64,000 bases of DNA from Utricularia gibba. Taxonomy: Eukaryota; Streptophyta; Magnoliopsida; Lamiales; Lentibulariaceae. Every line of letters starts with the position of its first letter. The first letter of the stretch is position 1. The DNA lies in assembly GCA_002189035.1 (NCBI GenBank), contig CM007992.1, positions 1,302,001 through 1,366,000 on the forward strand, read 5' to 3'. The notes under the pieces are model-generated. The model saw only the letters and a program-made list of their open reading frames with translations. It ran no database searches and was not told where the DNA came from. This document shows, piece after piece, positions 18,938 to 56,100 of this stretch. The position numbers and the translations under genes are program-made.

Positions 18938-20490
<1,553 letters not shown>

Positions 20491-21803
20491 GGAAGGGGCA
20501 AAGAGAGCAACGAGATATTTCGCCTTTTTTTCTTCCTCTCGTTAGGTATCTACAGCGACTTTAAAGAGAGGAGATAGGGGAAGGCCCAATAATCTATCGC
20601 CACGTTGCTGCATTTAAATGGGCGAAATGAGCTTCACGCCACTTCATGGATGACGGCATGTTCTTTGGGTGGCTTGTGGCTTCACGCAACACCTTCGGCC
20701 CAATGAATAGGGCCCATTAATAAATTTAAAGCCCATGAAACCTAAAACATTTTTTAAATTAAATTAGAATATCTAAAATTAGAAATATAATGCAAATTCA
20801 TAAGCTCAGAAATATATTAAATTGAAAATTAATATTGTGACTCTTGTAAATAGGTACAATCTATTTTCATGGCACCTATTTTAAAAAATATGATAAAATG
20901 TGAAAGAAAACTTAAATTATAATATTATTGCACATTAATGTGGCACAAATTATAAATTTTTCGAAATAAAATAATACACTCATTAATTGAAGTGCGCATT
21001 CAAATTATTTTTTAAAATTTAAATAGTTTTAATTTTATAATTTAAGTTTAATCTAACCAAAATTTAAGCTAAATAATACATGATATATATATATATATAT
21101 ACACACATGCATGTATATCACATATAAGTTGATTGTTAAATTAAAGATTCAATAGATTGAATGAATATATATAAAAGCTTAAATGTATAAAAAATATGTC
21201 TCATATTAAAAAAAATAATTTTAATAAATTAATAGTAATTTATAATTTTTTCATATTAGTAATCATTTCAATTTAATCCCTTGATTGGAAATTGATTGTT
21301 CTAATATTTGCTCACAAATCGAACTTGTTTTTATTTAGGTTAAGACTTATTTTTTTGTGATTATGAGTATTGGTCTAATGGAAGTCTAATGTATTTTATT
21401 GTTTTTTTTAACCTAAAATCAGACCAATATGAATTCCCACCCAGACAGATTTAGTATTGTATGTTATTATCAAGATTGTGAAACCGGTTGGGTTACACGT
21501 TCGAGCGGAGGGTGGATCCGATCCGACCCGACCCGAGAAAAACACAGTGTTGGGGTTTGCGAAAAGTGGTGTTGTTTTGTTTCTGGTAAAGCAGGGGCAT
21601 GGGCAGGAGCAGCACAAATGTTGAGGATGAGCAGAGACATGAAATGAAACCTCAATCACAAACAAGCAGCAGCACCCTCACGCTCACGCATCTACCTGCG
21701 TGTACCTTAAGAGAGGAGAGAAGAGTAGTTAATTGGCATTGAATACAGGTTAAAAAGAAAGAAAGAAAGAAAGAAAGAAATGCACGTAGTCAAGTCATTC
21801 ATT

Positions 21804-21834
<31 letters not shown>

Positions 21835-23388
21835 TGTGCTGTGCGCTTCCCTTTGTCATGTCGCCATTGAATTTTGCAGCGAGCGAGCGAGCGAAACAAA
21901 TGAATACGATAAATGTCGAGGAGCGGGCAGCAGGAAAACCCAGATTCCTCAGCAGCAGCAACTTTAATCACCACGTGGGACCATGGCGACCACCCCTCCC
22001 ACAACACAACCCCAACCCCAACCCCGCCTGCCTCCTCCTCCTGCTCCTGCTTCTGCTCCTGCTGCGCTCCCTGTCCCCACGGTCAAACCCAAATCATGAG
22101 CTCCCGCCCTACACTTCCACTTCCTCGCCTCTCCACCACACCCTTTTTCTGCTTTTCAAATAATACTAATACAATACCAGCCAGCGGGTTTGGAATTTGG
22201 AAATGGAGGCGAGGAGTGGGAGTCCAGTGGGCGTCTGCGGATGGCTTTTTGGGTGTCCCCGAAAAATGCAACAGGGGGCATTAAAGCCACCCGAGAAAGG
22301 TTGATGATGAGGATGATGATGATGATGAAGAACCCTGCGTCGCAGAGGGCGGAAGGAAAGAGAGAGGGGACCAGTCCAGCCCAGTCGCACCCACGCCCTT
22401 TGCACCATTTTCAACTCCTTCACAGAAGAAATCTGCAGGGGCCTGTTGCTGTAGATATCCTCTAGCTTATCGCGTACCTTTCAACCGCCTGACAATATTT
22501 TCTAGCCTCCCTCCTACTCCTACACTTCACAAAAACCAAATCTATATTAATATTGTAAACCCAGGAATCGGAATCTTTGCCTTTTTCCCTTCAAAAATTA
22601 ATAAAAAACCAAATATCAACATCTAACTCCTATACTATATTATCTATTTTCATTAATTAATTTTCAAAAGCTTATGTTTTTCTCTTTGTAATATATTGTT
22701 TGTTTTGAGAATTATGATTTTATATCTTTTTTATTTAGATAAAATACTTCATACAATATTAGGATGATTCGTATATTTAAACATATTTAATCTCCTATCG
22801 GTAACTAATGTGATATACTGTTATAAGTTCTCTGAATATATATTCTCTTTTTAAAAAAAATATCATATAGATTATGATACCACTTTATTTAAATATATTC
22901 ACTTAATTATTCATAACTAATTTGTAATATCGATATCTTATTTAATTCAAAATATCATGATCCATGTTTTTATTATATAATACTATCAATTTTAGAAATT
23001 CAATTTTTACACTTTCCAGAAATAATTTAATTAAGCGCATTTTTTTTCGTATCTAACCAATCCTTTGGATGGGGTCTTATATTAAATTTGTTTGAAACAT
23101 TTTTCTATTTAAAAATAAATATTTTATATTTAAAAATAAAAAAGTATTCATTACTTTTAATAAAATATAAATTTTTAATTACTATTTTATTAGAAATAGT
23201 TTTCAACAAATATAACCAATAAAATAAAGAACGAATTTTGAGGATAAATAAAATGAATTGAAATGAAGTGGATTTTAGGGCATCATGTGTTGTATTAAAG
23301 GGATCGCTCAAAAGTATCTGCAATTCCCAATGCTCATTTCAAAGCTTTCTTCTTCCTTCGGAGTTTCGTTTGCAGATCAAGGGCAGCC
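20491..23388. other. Divergent intergenic region with simple repeats
   Basis: This 2.9-kb stretch lies between the protease gene (-) and the BEL1-like gene (+). It holds AT-rich DNA (20740-21400), an (AT)n tract near 21083-21100, an (AAAG)n run at 21753-21780, a (TGTGCC)n/TGTGC run at 21804-21844 and a GC-rich, CT/CCA-rich block (21960-22460). A second AT-rich block runs 22500-23260. Open frames over the GC-rich block are low-complexity on all frames and not genes. Promoters of both flanking genes must lie here. Confidence 0.6.
21753..21844. repeat. Microsatellites (AAAG)n and (TGTGCC)n
   Basis: About seven AAAG units occupy 21753-21780. About four TGTGCC units followed by TGTGC repeats occupy 21804-21844. 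Both are simple tandem repeats and could be length-variable. Confidence 0.9.
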
Positions 23389-24925
23389 ATGGTTTCCGAA
23401 GATTCCACGAATTCCAACTCAAATATGCTGCACCACTTCTTCATCACCAACTCCATCCAAACCCAGAACCACTTTGGAGGAGATCATCACCATTTCAATG
23501 CGTATGGAGCTTCTGCGAACTCCAATGCCGCTGCAGGCCACTACGCGCATCCTTTGCATTCATCCATTCTTGCCGACAGGATTGCGAGATCCGTCGACCT
23601 CGGACACGCTCCCCAAATGTCTGAAGAATCGAATATGACTTCTGTTCACGATACCCGGTTAATGGATCTTCTTGGAACTTCCACCGAAGCAACTGGCCCT
23701 GCGAGGATGCTTTCCCTGTCCTTGGGCTCTGTTTCGTGCAGGCAGAGACCGGCTATGAATCAAGCGTTTGTTGATCATGGGTGCTTTGACTCCTTTTACG
23801 CTCCAGCGTCGAATCAATGCTGCTCCACTTCGTCCTATGGAACTGAATCGTTTACGGCCGCCATTGGGAACTCCAAGTACTTGAAGCCTGCCCAGGCGCT
23901 GCTTGAGGAAATGGTTAGTGTTGCGGGGAAGGAGATTGATGAGGGGAACCAGAAGTTCGTGGAGGAGCTCTCGAACAATGCCGTGAAGGGGATTTATACT
24001 CTGTCTTCGGAGCTTCGGGCGGAGCTCTCCCATGGCGAATTGGTCGACGAGCAGGGAACTTATCTCAATCTTCTTAAGCTACTTTCCCTTCTGGAGGAGG
24101 TAAGTACAGGAAATGCAATCATCCATTCCCAATAGTGTTCTGCTTCTGCTTCTTCTTCTTGGTTTGAGTAGAAGGATGGAATTTGCAGGTGGAACGACGA
24201 TACGATGAGTACCACCGGAAATTGGACGGCGTCGTTTCTTCGTTCGAGATAATCGCCGGTCTGGGCGCCGGGAAATCGTACACTGCTCTAGCCCTACAAG
24301 CCATGTCGAAGCACTTTGCTGCGCTAAAAAAAGCGATTGTGTCTCAGATTCGAGCTGCGAAGCACAAGATTGAGAAGGAAATGCCTAAAATCAGCTCACG
24401 GCTGTCGCAACTTTCCTTGTTCGACCAGGAAACCAGACACAATCACAATCACAACCGCGTGTCTCTCCAACAACTTGGGCTTCTCCAGAACTCCCGTCAG
24501 GCTTTCCGGCCAATCAGAGGCCTCCCCGAGAACTCCGTCGCCATTCTTCGTGCCTGGCTCTTCGAACACTTTCTTCATCCGTACGCGTTTCCTTGGAAAA
24601 TGCCCCTTGTTTGATTGTTACCTTCATTATTTGTGCTTGATCTGAAGCCATGTTTGTTTTCCCAGTTATCCCAACGACTCGGAGAAGCTGATGCTGGCGT
24701 CGCAGACCGGATTATCCAAGAACCAGGTGGGCATCTTCTTCTTCCATGGATAGATCACAGGCACATTCATTCACTCACACGCTTGGTGACTTAAACCGCG
24801 TGGGCCTGCGTCTGTTGCAGGTTTCGAACTGGTTCATAAATGCTAGAGTGAGGCTGTGGAAGCCGATGATCGAGGAGATGTACAAGGATGAGTTCGGAGA
24901 GTTCTCAACAGAGTCTGATCAGTAA
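23389..24925 (+). CDS. BEL1-like TALE homeodomain transcription factor
   Basis: Four exons (23389-24099, 24189-24580, 24666-24726, 24821-24925) join in phase to 422 residues. The SKY box is [20 protein letters not shown] (about residue 164). The BELL domain spans the first intron: [13 protein letters not shown] then [20 protein letters not shown] and [19 protein letters not shown]. The TALE homeodomain carries [20 protein letters not shown], the three-residue loop HPYPNDSEK, then [20 protein letters not shown]. It ends EFSTESDQ shortly after the homeodomain, with no C-terminal ZIBEL motif visible. BEL1-like factors pair with KNOX proteins in nuclei and control meristem and organ development. 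The exact subclade is not assigned. The first in-frame ATG was chosen; the exon is open from there. Confidence 0.93.
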
Positions 24926-28993: not shown

Positions 28994-29360
28994 TGCACAA
29001 GACCGGGTTGCTAAAGTCCGGGGATTCATAAAACTTTAATGTACTTATATTCAAAATATTTTTTTATAAAAATTATACAATAAGTAACTTAATATACAAA
29101 AATAAATTTTATATAATGTTTAATCAATGTTTCTAAAGAAAATATGTATTTGGTTTGAATGATGAGGTAAACACATTTGACCTCCTAAACCCTAGTTAAA
29201 CATGTATAGGCGCGTTTGGTTGCTCGGTTTAGGTGGGTTGCGGCATGGGTTTAGACATAAATCCACGTTTGGTACGTGAGTTTCAGGTGGGTAAAAATAA
29301 ACCCACATGTTGACCATAAATCGGACGGGAACCCGTGGAGCTGGGTTTAGCTAAACCCAA

Positions 29361-29373
29361 GGGGGGGGGGGGG
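29361..29373 (+). repeat. Homopolymer of 13 G
   Basis: A run of 13 G lies in the left subterminal region of the Harbinger element, within an AAACCCA-G13-TTGGTTT context. Its length may be assembly-sensitive. Confidence 0.9.
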
Positions 29374-29708
29374 TTGGTTTAGCTGAACCCAGCTCGGCAC
29401 TTCCACTTTTGCCCTTGTGTGAACTTCATTTGAACGCAGATCTACAACCCAGATTTGTTTGTGGTTTGCCGGTGGCGTCGCCTGTTCTTTGAGCGCAAGA
29501 GGGTGAGTCTTTCGGTAAGTATGCTTTTCTATTCTTGGTGGGTTGGCCCACGGTAGCACCGTGAGAGGCCAACCACGGCAGCACCGCATAGTGGATTTTT
29601 ATCTGTGATTTTCCAATTTCAGAATATGTGGTGTTGTGTCAATGAACTTATTTTGGTCGATTTTGGTGATTGTTGAGGGGTCATAGATTTTTTCACAGAG
29701 GGTCATGT

Positions 29709-31028
29709 CATCTTGAGTGCGGCAGCAGCAGTTTTGACTGAATACTTGGTGCAGATGAATGTGTTAGTATACTTACATTGGAAGAAATATCGTAAGGGAT
29801 ATAGGGTGCGACACCAGTATTCACTTACATACACGATTCCTAGAGAAGTTGAGTTTATTAGTAGGTTGGTGAGTGATGTGAATAGCGCATCCATTGATAA
29901 TTTGAGAATCAGCCGAGATGCGTTGGGTATTTTATATAGCCTATTAGAAAATCATTCTAACTTAAAAGGCTGGAAAATATGTAACAGTTCCGGAGATGGT
30001 TTGCATTTTTTTAGAAATATTAGGTCATCATAAAAAATTGCGGGTGCAGAAGCATGTCTACGGGAGAAGCACCGAGACTGTGCTTAGGTGCTTGCAAAAG
30101 GTGTTGCATGCGGTGCTTTGCCTCCATGAGGTTTTGTTAGAGATCCCAGTAGTTGCTGCAAAACGTGCATCCGAAGGGAAGTTTAAACACTTCCAGGTAG
30201 ACACATCTTTCATGCTTCTTTTTACGAATGTGTATCCTAAAATTGATTATGTATTTGCAGGGTTGTGTTGGAGACATAGATGGTACATACATCGGTATAC
30301 GAGTTAACAAAGGTGATGCTGCAAGGTACAAAAATCGAAAAGGGGTGATATCCACCAACGTGTTGGGTGTATGTGATGAACACATGAAATTTATATATGT
30401 GCTTGCTGGGTGGGAGGGGTCTGCTGCAGATAGTCGGGTGCTAAACGATACACTCTCACGATCCGACGGCTTCCGTGTACGCCCAAGTATTTCACTTGTT
30501 TAGCCCTTGCGCATGTGATTCCAATGATTTTATGCACCATGTATACGTGATGACACATGAACATAATACCTATATGACAATGGATACGCCAATAGGGAGG
30601 GCTTTTTGGCACCATACCGTGGGGTTCGTTACCACTTGAAGGAGTGGGGACAGGGAAATGGAGCACCCCAGAATGCGAAGGAGCTATTCAACATGTGGCA
30701 TGCATCAACCAGAAATGTGATCGAACGAGCTTGGGGCTTGATGAAGATGCGGTGGGGTATACTACGGATGGCTAGCTACTATTCCGTAGACACACAGAAC
30801 CGCATTGTATTAGCATGTGCTTTACTGCATAACCTCATTCGAAAGGAGATGGTGGTCGATCCCCTGGAGGATCAGGTCCCATTGGACTTCTAGGATGAAG
30901 CTGAGGATACGAGTGATCTAGAAGACGTCACAACATCTGCAGAAGGCAATCAGACATGGAATAGGTGGCATGACCAGCAAGCCGAGGGGATGTACACCGA
31001 GTGGCTGGCATCCCGCAGACGCCGCTAG
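29709..31028 (+). pseudogene. Harbinger DDE transposase (ALP1/PIF-like), disrupted
   Basis: The N-terminal helical part (NLRISRDALGILYSLLENH) is followed by a one-base shift near 29961-29975. The frame then continues as VTVPEMVCIFLEILGHHKK and TVLRCLQKVLHAVLCLHEV. After an intron comes the catalytic core: GCVGDIDGTYIGIRV (first Asp), RYKNRKGVISTNVLGVCDEH, YVLAGWEGSAADSRVL. A further segment has YLYDNGYANREGFLAPYRGV (second Asp), RNVIERAWGLMKMRWGILR (Glu) and ALLHNLIRKEM. A TAG at 30891-30893 interrupts the tail, which otherwise runs to EWLASRRRR and a stop at 31028. All three DDE acidic residues are visible, but the shift and stop make it a pseudogene. Related host proteins (ALP1) are domesticated transposases; this copy is inside its element. 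Confidence 0.92.
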
Positions 31029-31343
31029 TGTAGCACTGTATTAGTAATTGTCGTGTTAGTGAATTTCCTAAATTCCCATTCGGAACCTATCATGTCGTGT
31101 GTACTGTATTGCTAAGCACAACTATGTGCATTGCAAAGTCATGTCCTAAATTCCCGTTTGTACTCCAACCTTGAACTTGAAATTGTCGAGTATTTGATAG
31201 TTGCTGCACAAATTGTTGGGATTGTACCATAGTGTCATGTCTTACCATGGGTAACATGGTCAGACATGGTGGATCATTGGAGCCAACACCGCGATCTTGA
31301 GTTGAGGTGCTACAGAAGCTTGTAGGACACCAAAGTTGTTGGT

Positions 31344-31713
31344 AGCACCACGTGTTTCATCGTATCCGGTGCTGAAAAAAATTAGATATTAGATGAGTGG
31401 GAAGCTGGTGCATAGTAGGAGGGTAGTTGGCAGAACATGAATGCGCCTTTTCATCAAACACCATGATCCGTAAACTCCGATGCATCGGAACGCCTGGGCT
31501 ATGCCCCGTTTAGTGCTGCACCGCATGCTTCCTCGTATCCGATGCTGTCAAGATTTAGAAGTACATGCGTATGCAGTTGGTGCATATTAACGTGGGTGAT
31601 TGGAAGTACAATAATACTCGTTTTGATCAAACACCGCGAAAACATAATCCGGTGTTTATAAACACATGAGCTACACTACGCATTCTGCACCACCGCGAAA
31701 TGCGTATCCGGTG
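31344..31713. repeat. Cluster of CACCG...CGGTG palindromes in the Harbinger element
   Basis: Four related hairpin-like units occur here: 31344-31373 (AGCACC...GGTGCT), 31518-31545 (imperfect), 31629-31657 (8-bp arms AAACACCG/CGGTGTTT) and 31691-31713 (CACCG/CGGTG). Spacers in two of them are 13 bases and similar (CGAAAACATAATC and CGAAATGCGTATC). Further copies are at 29549-29563, 33939-33962 and 34587-34608. All known copies are inside the transposon. Confidence 0.75.
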
Positions 31714-32199
31714 TTCTAAGTTCCATAAATAAATCGGCAAAAAATATTGCAGTTATCCAGCATTAAATGAGAAGGGTGGTTGACAACCGTACAACGCTAT
31801 TAATACCCCCTGTGCACAATAAAGGCGTCTGACAATGTGCACTTTCCAAAAAAACTTCATTAATTTCGCCCATCCAACTCCACCCTTTCGGAAAACGTGC
31901 AGCAGCACCGCAAAAACCGACTCCTTGACAAATTCTCAAGAACAGCGTCGCGACGGTGAGAACCTTTGCCGTCAGCACCACGTGTTTCAAATTCTTCGTT
32001 GCCATCGTCGGCTAGCACGCCTATTGTTTTCTAGATGTTGGCGTGTGAGAAACTACATATCCGCTTCTCAATTCCCGACGGTTACACGATGTGGGATAAA
32101 CAAACGGGCGAAACGTCGGACGGCGAACCACCATCTAGAGTTGGAGCATCGGGATTTGCCATCAGCACCGAGCACTTTCAGTGTGGATTGTGACTCCCC

Positions 32200-32523
32200 C
32201 CACCCCCTTTCTTGGTGCAGATACTTGCTGCACTCCAGATCCCATTCTCCCACCTCACACCACGTTCTGCGGCGCAGGTTCTCGCATTTCTGCAGATCTG
32301 TGAAGAAGAGGACATACCCCCGGAAATGCGTGTCTTCTTTGCGGTTTCTGTTTATGTCCAACGTAAGGGGAGTCCGCACTACTCGCTTCATGGAAAACCT
32401 GGTGTGGTTCTGGTGACAGACGTGAGATTGGTGGACCAGTTTTGTATGGGTATGCCCACCCACCGCTGCAAAATGGCCAACAACGTTGACAGTGTCAGAG
32501 AATGTGGGACACCCATTAGGTAA
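32200..32523 (+). pseudogene. Open segment resembling gypsy-type gag-like domain (uncertain)
   Basis: The frame reads LQIPFSHLTPRSAAQVLAFL then QICEEEDIPPEMRVFF. Its spacing of 'P..L.P.....VLAF...CEE..I.P....FF' reminds me of the plant 'putative gypsy type transposon' domain. The resemblance is weak. The segment lies upstream of the captured phosphatase and might be its 5' exon, a fused TE piece or chance. It stops after about 100 codons. Confidence 0.3.
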
Positions 32524-32598
32524 CCATACAAAATAATTTCAGTGTTGCACACGTCTTGTGCAACAGTACTCATGTTTGTTGTTGTTTTCGTTGTAAAC

Positions 32599-33795
32599 AT
32601 AGAGGTGTTGCCAAAACGTGCGGCAAGGAGGTTTGTGAATTTGTTCTCTTGCAGAACAAAGTCCTTGGAGGACGTCTTGCCCCCCTTCGTCAATGCCCCT
32701 AGGACACACCATCTGTGGTGCGGAACCCCTCGACACCGTCGACAACGTACGAATACAAATGATGATCCTGAGGAGGTGACCCATGAAGAGGAAGAAGATG
32801 TGCAGCCAGAAATCAGGGGCAACAAAGACGAGCCAACACCAATCTGGACACACGACGACGGGTGCGATGCTGCCACTGCAAAATATATCGAAGTGGAGAG
32901 ACTGTACGCAGAGAATCTTGATCTCTGTGGTCGGCTTGCATGGTATGAAGCAAGGTGGCCATATGGTGGATTGTCTAGTGATAACACGGCCCCACCACGG
33001 AAGTTGCTAATATTTGACGTGAATGGCGTAATTGCGGATATTGTGTATTCTCGCGAAGTCAGATGGGGGGGCGCCGAAGCCGGATGCCGTCATTTACGGG
33101 CAAAACGGTAATGCGGTGTCATCGATATGCATTTAATATTTGGTGCGTCTGTCACCACTATTTCTTGTGCTTGTAGTGTATCTTCGACCAGGTGCACGTG
33201 AGTTGATACAGTTTTGCATGAAACACTTTGACGTTCCCATCTGATCTTCAAGAGGATGGTAAGACTGATCATCTTGCAGCCAAGGGGGTCCGCGTTCTTG
33301 CTGACATCTGATTTTTCTGACCACATGTGGCAGGGAACAATTGCACGATGTGGTTCAGTGATTACTAGGGCCTGCAGCAACCAGCAAGCTCGTCTTTCAA
33401 TGGGATGGATCAAGGTGTGTGGACACAGGCTATCCGGTGCACGACAACAGGAACAACATGGTTAAGCTTAAGCTTTTGAATCATGTATGGGGCGTCAACA
33501 CCAAGTTCAAGAGCAAATATCACCTTCTTAATACGCTTCTCATCGATGATGTGCCGTACAAGTCACTACACAATTCGGTGAGTTTCCGGTAGCGCTCATT
33601 CTCCACCGTCTTGCCTCTGATTATTGTTTACTTTCATTGAACAGCTCGAAAATGCCATATTCCCAACCACATTCAAGTACACCGCGGTGAATGATTGTTC
33701 GCTGGTTCGAGGGGGAGATATTAGGTCATTCCTGGAAGCCCTCATTGACAACATGGATGTACCCATGCACGTCGATCGCCGTCGGGTAGGTTAAC
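32599..33795 (+). pseudogene. Captured FCP1/NIF-type HAD phosphatase homologue inside the transposon
   Basis: The frame from about 32599 runs through an acidic stretch to RKLLIFDVNGVIADIVY near 33000. This is HAD motif I in the D-x-N-G form seen in plant FCP1-like proteins. An intron with GTAATG donor follows GQN (33109). The next exon (from about 33179) gives VYLRPGARELIQFCMKHFDV and PI, a TGA, SSR, matching RPFCDDFL.FCF..F.V.VWSSR. Later come LLGPAATSKLVFQWDGSRC, VDTGYPVHDNRNNMVKLKLL and the second Asp motif LLNTLLIDDVPYKSLHNS. A second intron (GTGAGT...TTGAACAG) leads to AIFPTTFKYTAVNDCSLVRG and GDIRSFLEALIDNMDVPMHV before the stop. Retained introns imply DNA-level capture. TGA codons at the expected Trp and Arg positions make it non-functional here. 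Confidence 0.8.
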
Positions 33796-34263
33796 GTCCA
33801 ATAGACGAGGAACACCCATTGTGGAAGCATTACAAGACTCTTGTCTAATTGACGGCGTACCTTTGCAATTGCATGGATCTTGCGTGAACTATCGTATGCT
33901 GACCTTGTTAGTTTTTAATCAATCACTGATCGCGGTGGCACCGCATGTTGTAACATCCGGTGTCATCACTGGATTTGGAACCTTGTGTCTAGACGTGGTG
34001 CTTCGTAATATGTAACACCAACGTGGTGCTAGTCCATAACTACTCGATAGCACCGCTCTGAATGTGATGGTAGTTGCAGTACCGTGTTTGTGGAAGAGTG
34101 CTCAACAACGAAACGCCGTGATTGTTCTTACGCGGTGCTTCCACGTACGAAGTCAGAACACTATCTACCCTTTGTAGTTCTCATATCAGTTTAAAGGATG
34201 ATTAGAATATGAAATACATCTAGTCCATGAGTCCAACATAAGGTGGAGCAGCACACAACAGAT

Positions 34264-35256
34264 TTAAGATCTACGTTCGGATACTAAACCACACACAATA
34301 AGCTCTCTCTCACAGTCGCTAGAGGCAAGGAAATAGCGCAACCTCGTAGGGTTGGAACTAATCGTCTCTACTATGGTAAAACATTCGATGGCAGTTAATT
34401 GCACCGGCATACCTCTAATGATCTCCCCTGCCTGACGTTGATTATCCACCAACTCCCGTGCTTGCTGCACCACTGTTAATCCCAAGTGACGTAGCTCTTC
34501 GCATGTGCGCACGTTAAGCTCCTTCATTTTTGTGATAAACTACACAGCATCATCGATTCCCCTCGGTCCCTTGCCGCTTCGTCTAGAGCACCGCGATGAG
34601 TCGGTGCTGTTGTGTGATTCGGAGTCCCTACTAAGCGTGATGTTGACATCCTCCGCGACATAACCAATTGGGTCACAAGGTGTGTCAGCATACGAGAAGT
34701 TCATATCGTGTCCAGTGCTATCCGGGTCCAAAGGGCAATCCGAAGACACTTCCAGATTCTCCCCCACATCTTCCATCAATTTCCTCTTCTTGGTCGCAGC
34801 TACATAGCTCATCGTTTTTTCTCCTGTAGTCTGATCCTTTCCAAAGATTTCCTGCCACTCCATTTAATACGGCCACGCCTTGTGTCTTAGGGCGCGCAAT
34901 CTGGGTGCATGCTGACATAATAACACGATCAGCACCGGATATAACACAGCGACAACAGGGCATACATACCTGATCAATCTCCTTCCAAACCTCATCGTCT
35001 ATGTCTACGGTGTAGGTCAGCTCACTGAAACCGGTGCATGACCGTGATAGAAAATCTATAAGGAGGTAGTAGTATTTTTTCTAGGTGTGCACCTTGCTAG
35101 ATATTTGGGGGTGTGCACGGATGTCGGTTCCAAGTTGGAGTTTCAAAAACTCTGTCTCTAACGCTCAGTGATACCCACCCCTAAAACCATTCTCAATTTT
35201 CCAGCCTTCTTTCACTATCTGCTTCAAAGCATGCAATAAGTCTTTCTCCTCATCTG
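34264..35256 (-). pseudogene. Harbinger Myb/SANT-like DNA-binding protein, disrupted
   Basis: The first exon reads EEKDLLHALKQIVKEGWKIE then NGFRGGYH, a stop, ALETEFLKLQLGTDIRAHPQ and ISSKVHT, a stop, KKYYYLLIDFLSRSCTGF. This is the Myb/SANT-like domain (DNGFR.GY...LE, HI.SK...WKK) with Trp codons turned to stops at 35167-35165 and 35083-35081. After an intron comes RLRALRHKAWPY, a stop (34866-34864), MEWQEIFGKDQTTGE. The last part has FITKMKELNVRTCEELRHLG and a C-terminal segment ending ELIVCGLVSERRS, with a stop at 34542-34540 between the two. In PIF/Harbinger elements this second protein binds element ends and brings the transposase to the nucleus. Four in-frame stops make this copy dead. 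Confidence 0.88.
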
Positions 35257-35837
35257 AATTCTAGGCACGTTTCGTTTTTTGTGAGACTCTTCCACCACAT
35301 TTGGGCTATGCATACCTGCAATCTGTGCTGGAGGAAATAAAACAGCAAGAACAAAGCACCTAAACCGAATAATTACCACAAGTAAACCGTAAAATTCACT
35401 CAAAATTCAACGGATTTCAAACAAGAAACCTTACGCAACGAAGGGAGTATACAAACTGGACTGAACCCATGGCTCTTCACTCTCAATTACTTGTGAAAAC
35501 GAGGGATCTCGTCGACAGGTAGCACCGCGACAACGGACTGTGAAAGTCGGTGGACGAAGGGGGTAATGGTAATAAAGAGGAATATGTCTGAATGGGTAAA
35601 GTGGGTGTGAAAGTAGGTGCACGAGTGTGAAAGGCTATATTGGTAAATTTCCATAAAAATTATGTATAAACCCAATTTTATACCTACCTATCAAACATAA
35701 GTTTATTTAAACCCAAATAATGTAAACCCATCAACCAAACATGATTCACAGAGATTAAACCCACAAAGTTGGATTCCCTAAACCCAAATAAACTAAACTT
35801 GGATTTAGGTCAAATCCAGCAACCAAACGCGCCCTAT

Positions 35838-37042: not shown

Positions 37043-38640
37043 TCAGAGTAGTTTCCATGCCTGACCTCCGTCTGCATTGAATTGCTTCAACCTTCCGAAA
37101 AGCATCACTATCAGGAGGACTGTTTTCCCCTTGCTGCTCCATGCCCCGGCGAATCCGTACCACCGGTTCACACACTTGTCATCCTCTGCCAGTCGTCGCT
37201 CGCAGCCGTAGCCGGTGGTGAATCCCACGTTCCCGTACGCACTGTCCGCTCCCCAGATCGCCATCGTTTGCATCAGTAAGCACAACACACGCAGAGCAGA
37301 AAAGTTACCTTACTACTTCCAGTGTGATGTTCAGGACGCTGAAGTTGAGCGGATCGGTCTCCATGCTCCTCCTCTCCGTGACGCAGATGATGATGACGAA
37401 GATGGCGATGTACGATAGCTGCGAAAACACCAGGCTCTCCGCAATCCCATTTCTCTGTTTCCCCCATCTCGCACCCCTTTCCGCCTCGCCTTCGCCGTTA
37501 CCGGCCGGAAGAAACGAAGTATACGGAGGAAGATACCTGCGGCACGCACAGCCGGGTCAGTGAGGATTTCTTGGACAGAGTCAGTTGGGAGACTCACATC
37601 ATCACGATGAAGAATGCCAACACGGCTGGTGTGATTTTGGATAAATCGACGACAGTTTCGCCGCTGCGTCGGGCGTTAACGATCTCGAATAGAATGCAGA
37701 CAGCTTTCCGGCAGAGACCCAAGCCTTCTAATTCCATGGAGTTCCACTCTAAAGCTGAGAATAGCAGGAATCCGATGAGGATGAAACCGAAAACAGTGGC
37801 TGCTAAACACTGAGAATGGCGAGATGGAAGCAGATGAAGGTACTCGATTTTGCTCGTGTTCTTGAGCAGATACTCGGCTTCTTCTTTCTTATTCTTCTTG
37901 CTGTGAGACCGCAGTAAGATTCTGAGACAGAAAGGGAACAGTGTGTTCCCTAAGAGAACTTGGGGGATCAAAACCAGCAAAAGCACTGAGTTTTCACGAA
38001 AACATATCATATTCTCGTTCGTGGGCACGAACCCACAATTACTGAACGTCGAAATGACCAGGAAAACAGCAACGATCCAGGTTTTGAGGCCTTTGGATCT
38101 GAGTAAAGCAGCAGCTGAATGATTGAGAGTCAGGTAGAAGAAAACGAGAGCTACACCGACCAAATGAACTACCAGAATGTATCTCCAGACTACAGAAATC
38201 AAGTGATCTTGAGCGTCAGCCTCAAGTAAGGGATTTTGCAAACCAGATCCAAATTCAGAGTCGTCGGAATCGAATTCGAAATAATCCTCTTCTTCTGCTT
38301 GTTCAACTTCACTCCAGAGCTTCCTCGACGAAAGCCCAATCACAGAAACGAAAATTTCACCCCCACATAACATCAAGAGGGATATAACCATGAGCTGTCG
38401 GTCTGAAAACGCCTCCATCTCAACAGTGGACATGCTGGACGCGGTGGCGGCAGAGACCGCGGTGAACAACATGTCAATCTTCAGTGGACTGAAATCTGCT
38501 TTGGGTCTCAATAATTGAAGAACCAGAAAACCCAGAAGGGACAGGGCAACTAGATACCCTGCTTGCACGAAACCAGCGTTTATTTCACGATTGCAGCGAG
38601 AAGGGGGCTCTTCCCGGGGACTCCGAGGACCGTTGTTCAT
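37043..38640 (-). CDS. HKT1: Class I HKT-type sodium transporter
   Basis: Three exons (38640-37598, 37536-37309, 37241-37043) join in phase to 489 residues, normal for HKT. The first pore loop is ATASSMSTVEMEAFSD, with Ser at the filter position that is Gly in K+-permeable class II members. The other filters are STFSNCGFVPTNENM, VNARRSGETVVDLS and VVSAYGNVGFTTGYGC, all Gly. The pattern Ser-Gly-Gly-Gly predicts Na+-selective transport. An acidic cytoplasmic loop (EQAEEEDYFEFDSDDSEF) follows the first pore unit. HKT1-type proteins sit in the plasma membrane, often of xylem parenchyma, and take Na+ back from xylem sap, lowering shoot Na+. Intron positions after pore 3 and before the last pore match the two-intron plan I know for plant HKT genes. 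No defect seen. Confidence 0.95.
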
Positions 38641-41279
38641 CTCCCCGGTTGGTCAAGAAACACAAGGCCCCAAATCTAAGGAATCACCGGAGAAGAACGG
38701 AGCAAAGACAGCGCCGCGAAGTTGAGAATTATAGACTCACATTGCCGTCCGTACTGGATTGCCCTCCGATCGCAGGCAGGAAGATGATGACTAGATGATT
38801 GTTCTGGGTTAAGAAGACTCGCGTGATTATGGGACTTGCGGCCATTGTGTTAAAAACCAACGTGCGACATGTGGATGGAGTTGATTGGGTCCCTTTCTTC
38901 TTGCAAAAAAAAAAAAAAAAATTAAAATAATCGGGTAGGATAAAGATATTTTAAATTAGAAACTGTAGTTCAAAATCCGCAAGTGCCACTTGTAAGGAGG
39001 AAGCCTACAAATTGCTGGATAGAGAAATAATGAAATAGGTTCATTACAAACTAAATAAGTCGACACAATGGTTTTAATGCTATACTGAAAAGTCCCGCAA
39101 AACGATAGACAGATAAATGTCAAAGTTTGGTAGTAGCAATTATTTTGACAAATTGAAAAATAATTGAATTACATTAATGCTACAATAGTCGGTAATTATC
39201 CGACAGCATGACCACAATACGATTAACAGGTTCAAAAAATAGTCAACATCTGTAATACTTAGAATTTGATCGGATTAGGTTACTTTATAAATATAAGAAA
39301 ACATAAAGAATAAAAGTTTGAAATCTCTACATTTCAACTTGTATCTTTGTCTATTTTCATTTTCATCGATCGCACCACATTTCTCAAAACCATAATACCC
39401 AAATCGGATCCATCGCTCTCGCTTTATTCGTAACCCAAAGTCGATTGTCAACCTCATTCCGATTTCCGACCATAACAGAAACCCTTATGTTTTTATAATT
39501 TTATTGATACTTTGAAAATGTATTATATTTAATCATTTATAAAATTAAATTATATAAATAATAACTCCACTCTAATCCATTTTATCAATCAAAAAATCAT
39601 TAGGTAATATATGTTGGATTCATTTTCAAAATATGGATAATTTTTATTATTTTAATAATATTTTGGTGGGGACCATAAGACACCCTCTCACATCAAATAT
39701 TTAAAATCACTTTAACTACTCAAAAATTAAAGTGAAGATCGAGAGTAGCCATCAAATTTGATATTTAATAAATAAGATGAATTTACTACGTCGACATTCT
39801 TCAAAAAATGAAATAATTTAATAAATTGAAGCAAGGTGGGCCCCATCCTTCCATTAGAATCTCTATCAATAGCGGCCACGGGCTAACCAAGCCATGTCAT
39901 GTCATATCGTTTAAGGACATAACAAAAAATGATATTAATTAAAATGATCACATAAATTTTATGCGAAATATTTTTCTAACATAAAGGGTGTTTGATAAAA
40001 CTCCAAATTTAAATATGCTTAACTTAGAATAATATGTTAATAAGTAATTTTTTAGAAAGACAAGATAAGTATAAGAAAAACGTAAAATCGTGTTCAAGTA
40101 AAAAACGCTTAAATTTAGAGTTTCTATCAAACACACTCCATAGAAAAAATGATTCATACAAAATTTTGTAATAAGTGAATTTTTAGGAAGATAATGTGAT
40201 AATAAGTGCCATTTGGATGTTACAACTCTCGGATTTGTGGCCTTTTAAAAAAAAAGGAAAATTAGACAGCAGCATCCCTTCCGTGGTGTCTTGTCCGTGC
40301 GACACGTGGAGGCTTGACTTCCATACAACTAAAGGCTAAATATAATAGTTTTCTTTAATTAAATTAATACTGCACATGCATTTTATGTTCAATCATTCTA
40401 TTTAGAACACTCAATTATTAGATGCGGACTTTCATGGATGGTAAAAAGTTATTAAAAATATAATGAAATGCAGAAGAAGAATGTAATTTTGATTAATGAT
40501 TTATTAAATAAACATATATTATATAATTGTATTTAAAATTATATTTATTAGATTAATGTGTTTATTAAATATATATGGTTAGAATAAATAAAAAAAACTA
40601 AAACTTGCCTTATTAAAAATTTACTTAGCTTTGAAAACATAATTGTAAAAATTATTCAAGTATTTATAAATTACTAGAAATATATGACAAATAAATATAA
40701 TTATCGATTTTAAATCACAAACAAACATACCAAATATCGTTTCAGGGATAATAAGGTTATAAGTGTGTGTTTGGTACGATAGTATTATTAATAATATATT
40801 TGAGTTATTTATATTTAGATAAATATGTATTATCTATTTAAAATTAAAATTTGTTTAATATATAGATTTTGAATATATATATATCTAAAACTATATTATA
40901 TTTGATAAATATATTTAAAATATATAATTTATAAATTAGATTTTTTGAAATATATAATTCGGAGAAACTCTCTAATTGCTAAACTAGTCTATTCAACATA
41001 TATTGTTACCAAGTATTATAATGTCCGAAATAAAGTTTTATTCTCGTCGATTTTCGAGTACGATTTATGATTATCATCAATTTTTTGAATAATCTAAATA
41101 ATAATTTAATGAGTTTTCTAAATGTGTTGACCGGTGGGACCCAACCGATAGAAAGTCAATTCCGTCAATTAAAAGCACATTTTTCCTTGAAAAAATTACG
41201 AAATGAGACGCACAAAACACAGACGCAAATCAACAAGGACACTGTGGAAGCTCGGAGAGGCGGAAGTTCAGGCGAGAGT
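38641..41279. other. AT-rich intergenic region with a MITE
   Basis: HKT promoter/5' UTR occupies the first 200 bases. A run of about 17 A is near 38906. The rest to 41100 is AT-rich with no coding exon. A short inverted-repeat element at about 39985-40140 is listed separately. Confidence 0.5.
39985..40140. mobile_element. Short inverted-repeat element (MITE-like)
   Basis: The left end (AGGGTGTTTGATAAAACTC, then CAAATTTAA) resembles the reverse complement of the right end (GGAGTGTGTTTGATAGAAACTC, then TAAATTTAA). The arms differ by a few bases. It is about 155 bp, AT-rich and non-coding. The target duplication is unclear. Confidence 0.5.
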
Positions 41280-51639: not shown

Positions 51640-53172
51640 TCACGCCGCTATTTTGACGGGGTATCTGTCGATGCAGTCCTCCCAGGGGCCGTTTCTGGAG
51701 GGACTCACGCGGCGGAGCGCCACCCACACGGCGCTGTTGCACTTGAACCCGCTCCCGAACGCGATCTGCCATACCTTGTGACCCTTCCGGACGCGCCCCT
51801 TGGCTTCTATGTACGCCAGTTCGTACCAGATGGAGCTGGAGGAGGTGTTCCCGAACCGGTGAAGGGTCATCCGGGAAGCTTCCACGTGGATGGGGAGGAG
51901 GTCCAGGTTCATCTCCAATTCGTCGATCACTGCGCGCCCTCCGGCGTGGATGCAGAAGTGATGGAATGCTAGTTTGAAGTCTGGGATGTACGGTTTCAGA
52001 TTCCTGTTCACTAATTTCTTCAGCACCAGTGCCGCGAAGAAGAGGAGCTGTTCGCTGATGGGGAGAACCAGGGGACCCAATGTGGTGATGTTTGTTTTCA
52101 ACGCGCCGCCGGCGATCGCCATCAGGTCTTTCGAGAGCGAGACTCCGGTTTTCCCGGCGTCGTCTTGCTCCTGGTACACGCAACGGAAGGCTTTATCCTC
52201 CGCGCCTTTGTGGGTCCTCACCACGTGAACCAGCTTGTACTTGGATCTGCGGCGGTCGCTAGGTTTATTGGAGAGGAGCACCGCGGCGCCGCCGACGCGG
52301 AAGAGGCAGTTGGGTATAAGCATAGATTTCTTGTTACCGAAGTACCAGTTCTGGGTGATGTTCTCTGTGCTGACGACCACGGCGTATGTGTTTCTGTTGG
52401 ATTGGAGCAGATCCTTGGCTAAATCCACGGCGATTACGCCGGCGCTGCAGCCCATCCCTCCGAGATTGAAGCTCTTGATGTTTCCCCTCAACTTGTACTT
52501 GTTCACAATCATCGCAGACAAAGAAGGCGTCGGATTGAACAAACTGCAGTTGACAACCAAAATCCCGATATCCTTGGGCTTCAATTTCGTGTTCTCGAAC
52601 AACCTATCCAACGCCCCGAACATCACCTGCTCCGCCTCCTCCCTCGCCGCCTGCATCGACGGCCGCGGCGGCAGAAAATGCATCGCCTCCGGCACATAGG
52701 TCTCATCTCCGAGACCAGAGCGTTCGAGAATCTTCCTCTGAAATTCCAAGGAAGAATCATCAAAATCCCCAGTCAAGGAAGAATGCTCCATAAACCGATG
52801 AAACGGAGCCTTGAGATGCTCCGGCGCCTGGTAACACGAGTAATCCAGCAAATAAACAGAACGCGGCCGCCTCATGATGTACACCGTGGATCCGAAAACG
52901 ATAAACACGGAGCAGATTATAACAGAAGCCAAATTATACTTAAGATGCAGCCACAGCTGACGAACATCATCGGGATTCATCTCCGAAACTTGGACGAATA
53001 TGGCCACCATTAGCGGGATCAAGCAGAGGGTGAGAAGATTAGAGATCAAATAATGGTAACCCAGTTTCACATACTTCAAATTAACACTCTGCAGGAAATC
53101 CGGCAGCCTCCGGGGATGGTGAATCCGGACGCCCACCCTCGCTCCTCCTCCTCCTCCGCCGCCGCCGTCCAT
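51640..53172 (-). CDS. 3-ketoacyl-CoA synthase (KCS, FAE1-like), intronless
   Basis: A single exon of 510 residues, standard for KCS. MDGGGGG at 53172 is chosen as start; an in-frame ATG at 53280 would add 36 residues that do not look like the family. Two N-terminal membrane segments are visible ([20 protein letters not shown] and [20 protein letters not shown]). The FAE1/type III PKS-like catalytic domain has the Cys in [20 protein letters not shown], the His in [18 protein letters not shown] and the Asn in [22 protein letters not shown] is the rate-limiting condensing enzyme of very-long-chain fatty acid elongation in the ER, feeding wax, cutin or suberin. Length and start fit the KCS11/KCS4-like group, but the subclade is not assigned firmly. 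No defect. Confidence 0.94.
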
Positions 53173-56100
53173 GGCCACCAATTGAATCGACGAAAACCAA
53201 AAGGAAGAGACACAAGGAGAAGCCAAGTTGCTTAAGGGACAGCACAAGAGCGGAGAGCGAAGGGTATTAAATACTACCACTGCACTCTGAATTCATTGCC
53301 AAATTGCTCTGTCCCCCCATCGCATCTCCTTCTCTCTCCCTCTCTGCGACTTCCTTCGTCTCCGCTAACCAAATAACGTTTACCCTGCCGTAAAAGAAGA
53401 TAAAGACACAGCGGCCATAGCTTTTAAAATTCAAGGTGTTGACCGCTCTCTGTTACACTTGCCTTTTCACTGTCTGCTAATATTTTAAAATTCTGAATTT
53501 AACTGGGATATCATATTTATTTTTATAAGAAATTAAAATTTAAAATATTAAATTTATATAATTATTTTTATTTTTTTACAATATTTTTACAATAAATTTA
53601 GAAGTGTGCAGTTTTAAAAGACTGCTGTCTGCTACCTACCCTTGCCAAATCTCAACGGGTACACTCCAACATGTACTATGCAATTATTTTGAAGCTAAAT
53701 TATGATTAAATTGTGATTGAAATAGGATTCGATCGTATTTATTTTTTTATATTTTAAAACGTTGAACGATTTACATTTCAAAACATCAGTTATGTGGATC
53801 CAACATTTTGAAAAATTCAGAAATGATAACCAAATTTTGGGTAAGTTTTTGTAATTAAAAAATAATATAATTTATTTTAAGATTTAAACATAATTAATAA
53901 ATATTAATCCCACATACTCAAAATCAAATTTTGATAGAAATTTTCAATAAAAAATTTAATGTAAATTGGGAGGAGGGGTTGGGTTAAAATTCGAACTTTC
54001 GTTTTAAAATTCAATACATTTTTTCTATAAATCTATTACTTGAATTATTGGGCTAAACTTTATTTAATCTCTACTAATACTCGTTTTAAATATTCAAAAA
54101 TTTTACAACATTTGAACCTTTTCTAAATTTAATATCTATAAATGAAAAAATATTATTTAAATTCTTAATAAAACAAACAAAAATTTTATTTTCAAGGGGA
54201 CAGCCAATAGACATGAAAATGATAAAACATACCACATTTTTTCAAATTTTGCAATTCATTTCTGTATAATGTCTGAGTGGTATAATTTTTTAAGATATGT
54301 TTTTTATGACATCTACTTCTATCATCATCTCAATATACCATCTAACCATTTTGTCCTCCGTACTCAATCATTGTGCGGAAAGCCTCGACCTCTATATTTT
54401 TTTTTCCATTAGTGGATGAGCTAAAACACATGTGATTTACTTGTTTTCCAAATGGTCACATTGATCTCTTTTTTTCTTTAGATCTTTTTTTTAATTACGA
54501 CTTTGATATATTTTTATTATTTCGCAAGAACAAACGACACTTGAAAAGTCATATGTAAAATGAAAAACTCCTAAAAATGTTGAATGGTTTTGAAAGAATT
54601 TTTCCCATAAACAAGGATATTGCATTAGTCATGATAAATGATATAGACAACGTTTAGAAATCAATTATATTCTACTAAAATTAATTATATTTTTGTATAT
54701 TTGATTTTGTATTTCAAATGTGTATTATATTTTTTTACGTGAATTAATTTTTAAAAATCATTTCAATTCTATAAAAAGTATGAATAAGTGGTTTTAATAT
54801 AAAATTATTTTTTAAAAATTGATTTTCATAATAAATTTAATATTATATATATACATACATATTTGTTAATGATAAAAATTATAATGAATGTCATTTTAAA
54901 TAAATATTGATTAATTTATTTGTCTATCAAAATTTTATTCTAATTATACGAATTGGGATTCTACAAATTTTCAATTGGTAATAGAATAATCATTGATTTT
55001 AAGGAATAGAGTAAGAATTTAATACATAGAATATAATTATTAATAAGTATAGGTAAATATGTAATTTAATTATAAAAATCACTTTGTAATTTTTACTATA
55101 ATAGTCATTTTTAGAAAACACTTTTAAATATATATCAATTTTCATTTTATTAAAATATTTAAGTTATGTTAAAATCAATTTTAAAGTGATTTTTTTCAAA
55201 CTTACGTATAATCTAGTATTATGTTTCAAATCAGTCGAAAATGACTCTACTGCTAGTATTACAAATTATACAAATAAAAGGCATATATTAATAATTTTCA
55301 AATGGAAAATCATATTTCCAATTAAAAATATTAAAAATTCGCTTTAATTTAAAGGAGCTATCATTGTTGTAATATCAGATATTATAAACAATATATGATA
55401 CAGATCCGGAATTTATAAAATATTAATGATATGGTAGTTGCATTTTAAAAAGGGTTCCAAATCTACGTTTAAAATTCATATAAACTTGGATGCTTTTTTA
55501 TTATTTTTATAATATTTTCTATGATTAGTTTGAAATTTGTCAAGAAAATGAAGAAATTAGAAAATTGCCGTCCTGCACGCAATTGTATTGGTAGGAATTT
55601 AAGGCAGGTTGGACACCCACTTTTGAACATATGCGTGTATTGTAGTAAAGGAACATGGGGTGCAGAGTGGGGCCTCTTCCACCTATTCCAGAATGAGAGA
55701 AGGTTTGAAATGTAGTTAATTTGGATGGAATATTTGAAAATATATTAAAATATTTGTTTTGGTAAATTTTAATTAGAATGAAATATATTATATTTATATA
55801 AAAGATAAAAAACAAAATGAATAAAAAAGAGACGGATGATAAAAATATCAAACGAGGGGTGAGATAATTAAATCACAACAGTACATATTAGAGTTGTAAT
55901 CGGCTCGACATTCAAGATTCTGAATGTCAGCATTTTTTCATAAGCATGATTCATGTGAGCATTTGAAAAAAAGTCAGCATTTTTTGGATTGTTTCTAGAT
56001 ATGCATAAGAGATGTTATAGATACTTGAAAAAAATTATAAATATATTGTACTTCTTAGGTACTTGCAATAACTTATGCGGATCATGAAAAAAAATTTGAT

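Follow-up and report, generated by a model that had tools for sequence, protein, structure and literature searches.

PIF/Harbinger elements are described as two-gene machines. The locus considered here raises the question of what a phosphatase gene is doing between the two canonical genes of such an element: whether it is a host gene enclosed by chance, a passenger, or a third gene of the transposon. The window (the whole stretch of 64,000 nucleotides that was analysed, C4:1302001-1366000 of a 100-Mb plant assembly) was searched on both strands over the element region. It had been predicted to contain a Harbinger transposon whose matching terminal repeats enclose a DDE transposase, a Myb/SANT-like gene and, between them, a captured FCP1-like phosphatase homologue.

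The element spans 29208-35834 (Table 1) and was assigned to PIF/Harbinger on the basis of a DDE_Tnp_4-type transposase, a Myb/SANT-like ORF1, and terminal inverted repeats (TIRs) with a 3-bp TWA-type target site duplication (TSD). Its TIR reads AGGCGCGTTTGGTTG... and it is flanked by TAT/TAT; the TIR pair (29209-29230 / 35812-35833, 22 bp) is complementary at 20/22 positions, and the first TIR base is an A, unlike in other copies. Two exon pieces of the transposase match PF13359 (DDE_Tnp_4) in Pfam at 32.4 and 49.1 bits, and the SANT gene is 50% identical to a homologue at locus L081 that matches PF12776 (Myb_DNA-bind_3) at 43.1 bits. The predicted FCP1-like motifs were all found in the expected order, though the gene is broken. 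Beyond the original prediction, the analysis brought out a Transposase_28 domain upstream of the phosphatase, the minus-strand orientation of the SANT gene, an enrichment of AGCACCG (13 in the element against 3 in the remaining 57 kb of the window), and carriers belonging to the hAT superfamily. The window copy is dead, with an in-frame TAG in the transposase (at about 30893), stops in the SANT gene, a stop in the Transposase_28 part (near 32191), and, in the phosphatase part, a frameshift at a run of G (about 33070) and two stops (near 33242 and 33357).

Directly inside the left TIR, a 20-bp near-perfect inverted repeat (GAGCTGGGTTTAGCTAAACC / GGTTTAGCTGAACCCAGCTC, 29338-29395) with a G run between its arms is possibly a subterminal hairpin. 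The element lies in gene-rich DNA, since ordinary plant genes flank it; by eye, these are a papain-like protease (20023-20541, -), a BEL1-like homeodomain gene (23299-24135, +), an HKT-type transporter (37594-38652, -) and a 3-ketoacyl-CoA synthase (51640-53292, -).

Table 1. Features of the window element (window positions), TSDs of other copies, and diverged elements with the same gene order (assembly positions)
Feature	Position	Strand	Evidence
TSD TAT, left	29205..29207	.	sequence; TSDs in other copies
Left TIR (AGGCGCGTTTGGTTGCTCGGTTT)	29208..29230	+	TIR comparison; left end family-wide
18 dispersed GCACCG/CGGTGC motifs, 13 as AGCACCG	29556..35527	.	
DDE transposase gene, 3 exon pieces (29975-30196, 30249-30491, 30564-31025)	29975..31025	+	
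Third gene, Transposase_28 domain + linker + FCP1-like phosphatase exons	32035..33791	+	
Transposase_28 part of third gene	about 32035-32523	+	
Phosphatase exons of third gene	32989-33075, 33176-33259, 33323-33583, 33639-33791	+	
Myb/SANT-like (ORF1) gene, two exon pieces	34294..35227	-	homologue in L081
Right TIR (ends ...CCAAACGCGCCC)	35812..35834	-	TIR comparison; right end family-wide
TSD TAT, right	35835..35837	.	sequence
TSD TAA/TAA, other copies	C451; C505		
TSD TTA/TTA, other copies	C375; C460; C317		
TSD TAG/TAG, other copy	C2		
Diverged examples	C98:2910467-2915877; C505:246861-252374; C402:2414772-2419672; C1:5813028-5818950		

The left 243 bp and the right 277 bp of the window element each occur about 40 times in the assembly. 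In other copies the TIR reads GGGCGCGTTTGGTTG and is accompanied by matching 3-bp TSDs, which confirms the element boundaries (TTA or TAA in five copies and TAG in one, beside TAT in the window and TAA in a diverged family). Layouts were called by clustering, along the assembly, the tblastn matches to the transposase, the Transposase_28 part, the phosphatase and the SANT gene together with both ends. More than 20 close copies follow one order, namely left end, transposase, Transposase_28 part and phosphatase on the same strand, SANT gene on the opposite strand, and right end, some of them missing one part. The same gene order and orientations recur in diverged elements, at 54-60% identity for the transposase and 36-43% for the phosphatase. 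A whole diverged element at C1:5811727-5819655 (7929 bp), with 25-bp TIRs GGCCTCGTTTGTTAGGTGGGTTTAA (24/25) and TSD TAA/TAA, is a second PIF/Harbinger family with other ends, the same three genes and a phosphatase about 40% identical.

The window alone could not rule out that a host gene happened to lie between TIRs belonging to two separate elements. This reading was rejected because the same complete layout is repeated family-wide, the TIRs recurring as a pair with matching TSDs around the whole set at many loci, and it retains practically no probability. The concern that other family copies might lack the phosphatase did not hold either: close-family copies without it are missing the transposase or the SANT gene too, matching internal deletions, with one near-exception (C409:234250-238264) where the transposase, the Transposase_28 part and the SANT gene are kept and no phosphatase match is listed. 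What had been predicted as a possible third element gene stands for a PIF/Harbinger lineage; the picture of capture by a single element does not, the phosphatase being an apparently old component of that lineage, fused to Transposase_28 and resident in hAT elements as well. The carriers examined closely have broken frames. Derivatives of about 0.9 kb with both family ends and zero genes are non-autonomous relatives (C409:13765-14698, C408:14754-15687, C4:3597036-3597926, C413:3973557-3974511, C1:1821698-1822598); those on C408 and C409 score identically and may be a single locus assembled twice. Similarly, C41:31656-33485 and C451:3877460-3879292 have Transposase_28 matches of identical score and similar phosphatase matches, and are a recent copy or a duplicated assembly piece.

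Phosphatase loci in the assembly number 96: 27 have a transposase upstream on the same strand and a SANT gene downstream on the opposite strand, 11 have a hAT transposase upstream on the same strand, 4 have a hAT transposase downstream on the opposite strand, and 25 show none of these layouts. Among elements with both transposase and SANT gene, 37 have a nearby Transposase_28 or phosphatase match and 13, mostly more compact, have none. Because of these 13, the third gene is considered a trait of some PIF lineages only, and as unnecessary for PIF transposition as such.

In homologues, Transposase_28 and phosphatase are found within one gene. The Transposase_28 domain (PF04195) scores 27.7 bits in the window (32194-32523) and 31.5 bits in the homologue at L083, against a cut-off of 26.2. 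For the Pfam NIF domain (cut-off 21.8), the homologue at L086 is above threshold (29.1 bits) and L083 is below it (19.3), the window pieces being too broken to match; comparison of the phosphatase with PDB sequences gave no match up to E 10. Motif I reads DVNGV, i.e. DxN instead of DxD, also in the host genes L014 and L020, so that the strict DxDx(T/V) pattern is absent. Since the second Asp of the motif is an Asn, the assignment was lowered from strict FCP1 to the FCP1-like DxNG family. Across copies, the catalytic positions are largely kept (nucleophile D 23/24, N 23/24, motif II S 24/24, K 26/26, and the two residues of the DD motif 18/23 and 22/23), and the product is a FCP1-like HAD phosphatase homologue of DxNG type, predicted to be an enzyme. 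Literature searches (FCP1 or NLI-interacting factor with Harbinger; third gene or additional ORF), whose coverage leaves out most subscription papers and Repbase reports, turned up no account of the gene. Between the Transposase_28 and phosphatase exons, L086 contains AT-rich tandem repeats at 1812-2334 (ATTCAATAAAAAT-type, with a 13-bp period and multiples of it).

Selection was estimated on codon alignments of close copies with stops masked, which were built from local matches and are biased to conserved stretches, equally for all genes. Mean pairwise dN/dS was 0.31 for the phosphatase (26 copies), 0.36 for Transposase_28 (15), 0.38 for SANT (19), 0.44 for the linker (24) and 0.46 for the transposase (16). 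As a frame control, shifting the phosphatase alignment by one or two bases raised the value to 0.68 and 1.06. A one-ratio maximum likelihood codon model gave an omega of 0.58 for the phosphatase (lnL -4574.6 against -4598.4 at omega 1), 0.64 for the transposase and 0.57 for SANT, with gains over omega 1 (omega-1 likelihoods taken from a grid of kappa) of about 24, 12 and 20 log units, respectively. The likelihood values exceed the pairwise ones, probably because the tree consists mostly of terminal branches of dead copies. By both estimates the phosphatase ratio is below 1, as anticipated for a genuine component, and the phosphatase exons are under constraint no weaker than that on the transposase. 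In the close family, congruence between transposase and phosphatase trees was uninformative (Mantel r about 0, ten copies, star-like).

These values bear on the possibility that the phosphatase is passive cargo, a functionless transduplicated fragment carried along by a single successful master element and the copies made from it. Host fragments do enter PIF and hAT elements (PMC2528002, PMC8903248), the window copy is broken, and PIF elements without a phosphatase exist. A hitch-hiker fits poorly with a dN/dS at least as low, under frame controls, as that of the transposase of the same elements, and with a gene kept at about 40% identity, catalytic motifs included, in hAT elements and in a family whose TIRs differ; passive cargo is already disfavoured and we regard it as quite improbable. 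Dozens of relatives keep the gene in place, apparently under selection, and hAT elements carry it too, which makes it a probable functional accessory of selfish DNA.

The hAT carriers were recognised from the third-gene homologue at L083, which adjoins a hAT-like transposase. A genome search with this transposase and a count of layouts gave two recurrent arrangements, the third gene followed by a hAT transposase in opposite orientation (the 4 loci above, in a strict count) and the hAT transposase followed by the third gene on the same strand. An element of the first arrangement, C402:1730682-1736332 (L083 and L084), holds the third gene between the ends TAGAGGTGGGCACGG and CCGTGCCCAGCTCTA and is flanked by an 8-bp TSD matching at 7/8 positions (ATTGAATC/ATCGAATC); a second copy at C414 (L085) is 85-91% identical to it over the body. 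In the second arrangement, L086 contains the PF05699 hAT dimerisation domain (80.5 bits). The transposase piece of L083 gave no Pfam match and a tblastn match to the same hAT set. Assignment to hAT relies on the transposase with its dimerisation domain in L086 and, for L083 and L084, on short TIRs with an 8-bp TSD; a TIR search in L086 found nothing, and the end may fall outside that piece. No SANT gene was seen in the hAT layouts, and what hAT and Harbinger carriers have in common is the third gene and a palindrome.

This distribution also bears on whether the third gene aids transposition itself, e.g. by dephosphorylating the transposase or its SANT partner, rather than element expression. 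Its retention together with transposase and SANT under similar constraint would agree with such a role, which is made unlikely by compact PIF elements that do without it and by hAT carriers that combine it with an unrelated transposase.

The palindrome is built from GCACCG-type motifs, which are enriched in most carriers (in L086 in the form AGGCACC instead of GCACCG). In the diverged Harbinger and the hAT carriers these motifs make up a 34-bp palindrome, CCAGGCACCGCA-N10-TGCGGTGCCTGG. The exact half-site CCAGGCACCGCA occurs 48 times genome-wide, against 2 for the reversed control, and 33/48 sites lie within 4 kb of Transposase_28 or phosphatase sequence (1.05% of the genome; p about 2e-16, counted by clusters). 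For the palindrome core, 59 matches were obtained and the reversed control gave 0. Repeats in the same array are interdependent, which makes clusters the appropriate unit of counting: 12/23 clusters lie beside a Transposase_28/phosphatase gene, and 12/12 of these are downstream, on its 3' side. Orientation is consistent in 31/39 sites, and the exceptions come mostly from a double locus at C451. The variant AGCACCG replaces the palindrome in the window family, and a motif variant defined for that family (ATCAGCACCGCA) gave 4 sites, none useful. Clusters with no Transposase_28 or phosphatase detected within 4 kb (C402:1934627, C3:5030962-5031130, C451:5844785, C451:3399877, C413:3180365, C1:5611988) may be remnants of carriers, or the palindrome may have a further use there.

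The nearest host genes are the two chromosomal FCP1-like genes L014 and L020, which belong to the plant DxNG HAD genes. They share with the transposon phosphatases the motifs K-L-L-V-L-D-x-N-G (motif I), I-W-[ST]-S-R and DD[ST]P, and exon ends after motif II and [LS]NP; unlike the transposon genes, they show no Transposase_28 domain in the stretches read. In the tree with these host genes that the original prediction had called for, the transposon phosphatases form one clade against L014 and L020 (support 100/100), whose internal branching does not separate a single transfer from repeated captures of a fused host gene. The simplest reading of these comparisons is one fusion with later spread. 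The phosphatase half would derive from a host gene of L014/L020 type, captured as intron-containing DNA and joined once to Transposase_28; later the fusion, together with the palindrome array on its 3' side, would have passed between transposon superfamilies. A less probable alternative is repeated capture of a since lost host fusion. In its general form, a present or past host family of Transposase_28-phosphatase genes captured independently by several transposons, this alternative can point to the open branching order, to the 25/96 loci with no transposase found nearby and to host FCP1-like genes whose introns sit at the same places. We consider it rather unlikely, given that L014 and L020 show no such domain in the stretches read and that the common 3' palindrome and the fixed layouts need extra assumptions.

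The resulting element resembles other PIF-like elements in its DDE_Tnp_4 transposase, Myb/SANT ORF1, 3-bp TWA-type TSD and TIR with GTTTGGTT, and differs from them by a third, spliced gene between the two canonical ones and by a size of about 6.6-8 kb, which is not compact. Host sequence within PIF or hAT elements is already documented as Pifvine-3, Hatvine-6, Pack-PIF and Pack-hAT (PMC2528002, PMC8903248), whose fragments are varied and mostly unconserved, unlike the single homologous gene found here across both superfamilies. PF04195 is likewise known from an accessory gene of plant transposable elements, occurring in extra ORFs in 23% of Retand LTR elements (PMC6317226), a different class for which that paper mentions no phosphatase fusion. 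The closest parallel is KIU/VANC in VANDAL/KIU (Kaonashi) MULEs, where a host-derived enzyme domain, Ulp1, was captured inside one of three genes and kept by selection, carriers share short motifs dispersed in non-coding element DNA (PMC13317346), and the captured domain has turned up in a second superfamily as well (Ulp1 in both MULEs and CACTAs; PMC13317346, PMC2528002). There the enzyme is a SUMO protease; here it is a FCP1-like phosphatase with a Transposase_28 domain, carried by PIF/Harbinger and hAT elements, and anti-silencing, the role of the VANC/KIU factors, is proposed here by analogy. A looser analogy is the PMD-PP7 fusion (MAIL3) and the MAIN/MAIL1-PP7L module, where a transposon-related domain is joined to a phosphatase, by fusion or as a partner, and the pair acts in regulating genes and transposons (PMC7156037); these are host genes with a PPP-type phosphatase and no shown homology.

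Taken together, we consider it likely that the window contains a dead member of a PIF/Harbinger lineage whose full form has three genes, a DDE transposase, a Transposase_28-phosphatase fusion and an opposite-strand Myb/SANT gene, the fusion being an accessory gene shared between superfamilies, with a phosphatase half of single, host-derived origin. That its protein acts in trans on its own carriers is, taken separately, a tentative suggestion. Such an accessory would recognise the repeated palindrome or the GCACCG motifs, directly or via a partner, and would dephosphorylate a nuclear target, e.g. the Pol II CTD or a chromatin factor, which would keep the element transcribed in parallel with the VANC/KIU anti-silencing factors. 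Palindrome binding is purely inferred, and phosphatase activity, the nuclear target and anti-silencing are likewise proposed. More speculative still is a modular anti-silencing or licensing cassette, made of the Transposase_28-phosphatase gene and the 34-bp palindrome array and traded between PIF/Harbinger and hAT elements, which would recognise its own palindromes and dephosphorylate a transcription or chromatin factor.

On this account, PIF/Harbinger and hAT elements would take up host enzymes and retain them, as VANDAL MULEs have done with Ulp1. One gene together with its flanking palindrome in two superfamilies that are unrelated would, if true, speak for accessory genes spreading between transposons as modules; it would also offer a specific transposon-encoded phosphatase as a candidate for acting on transcription or silencing in plants.
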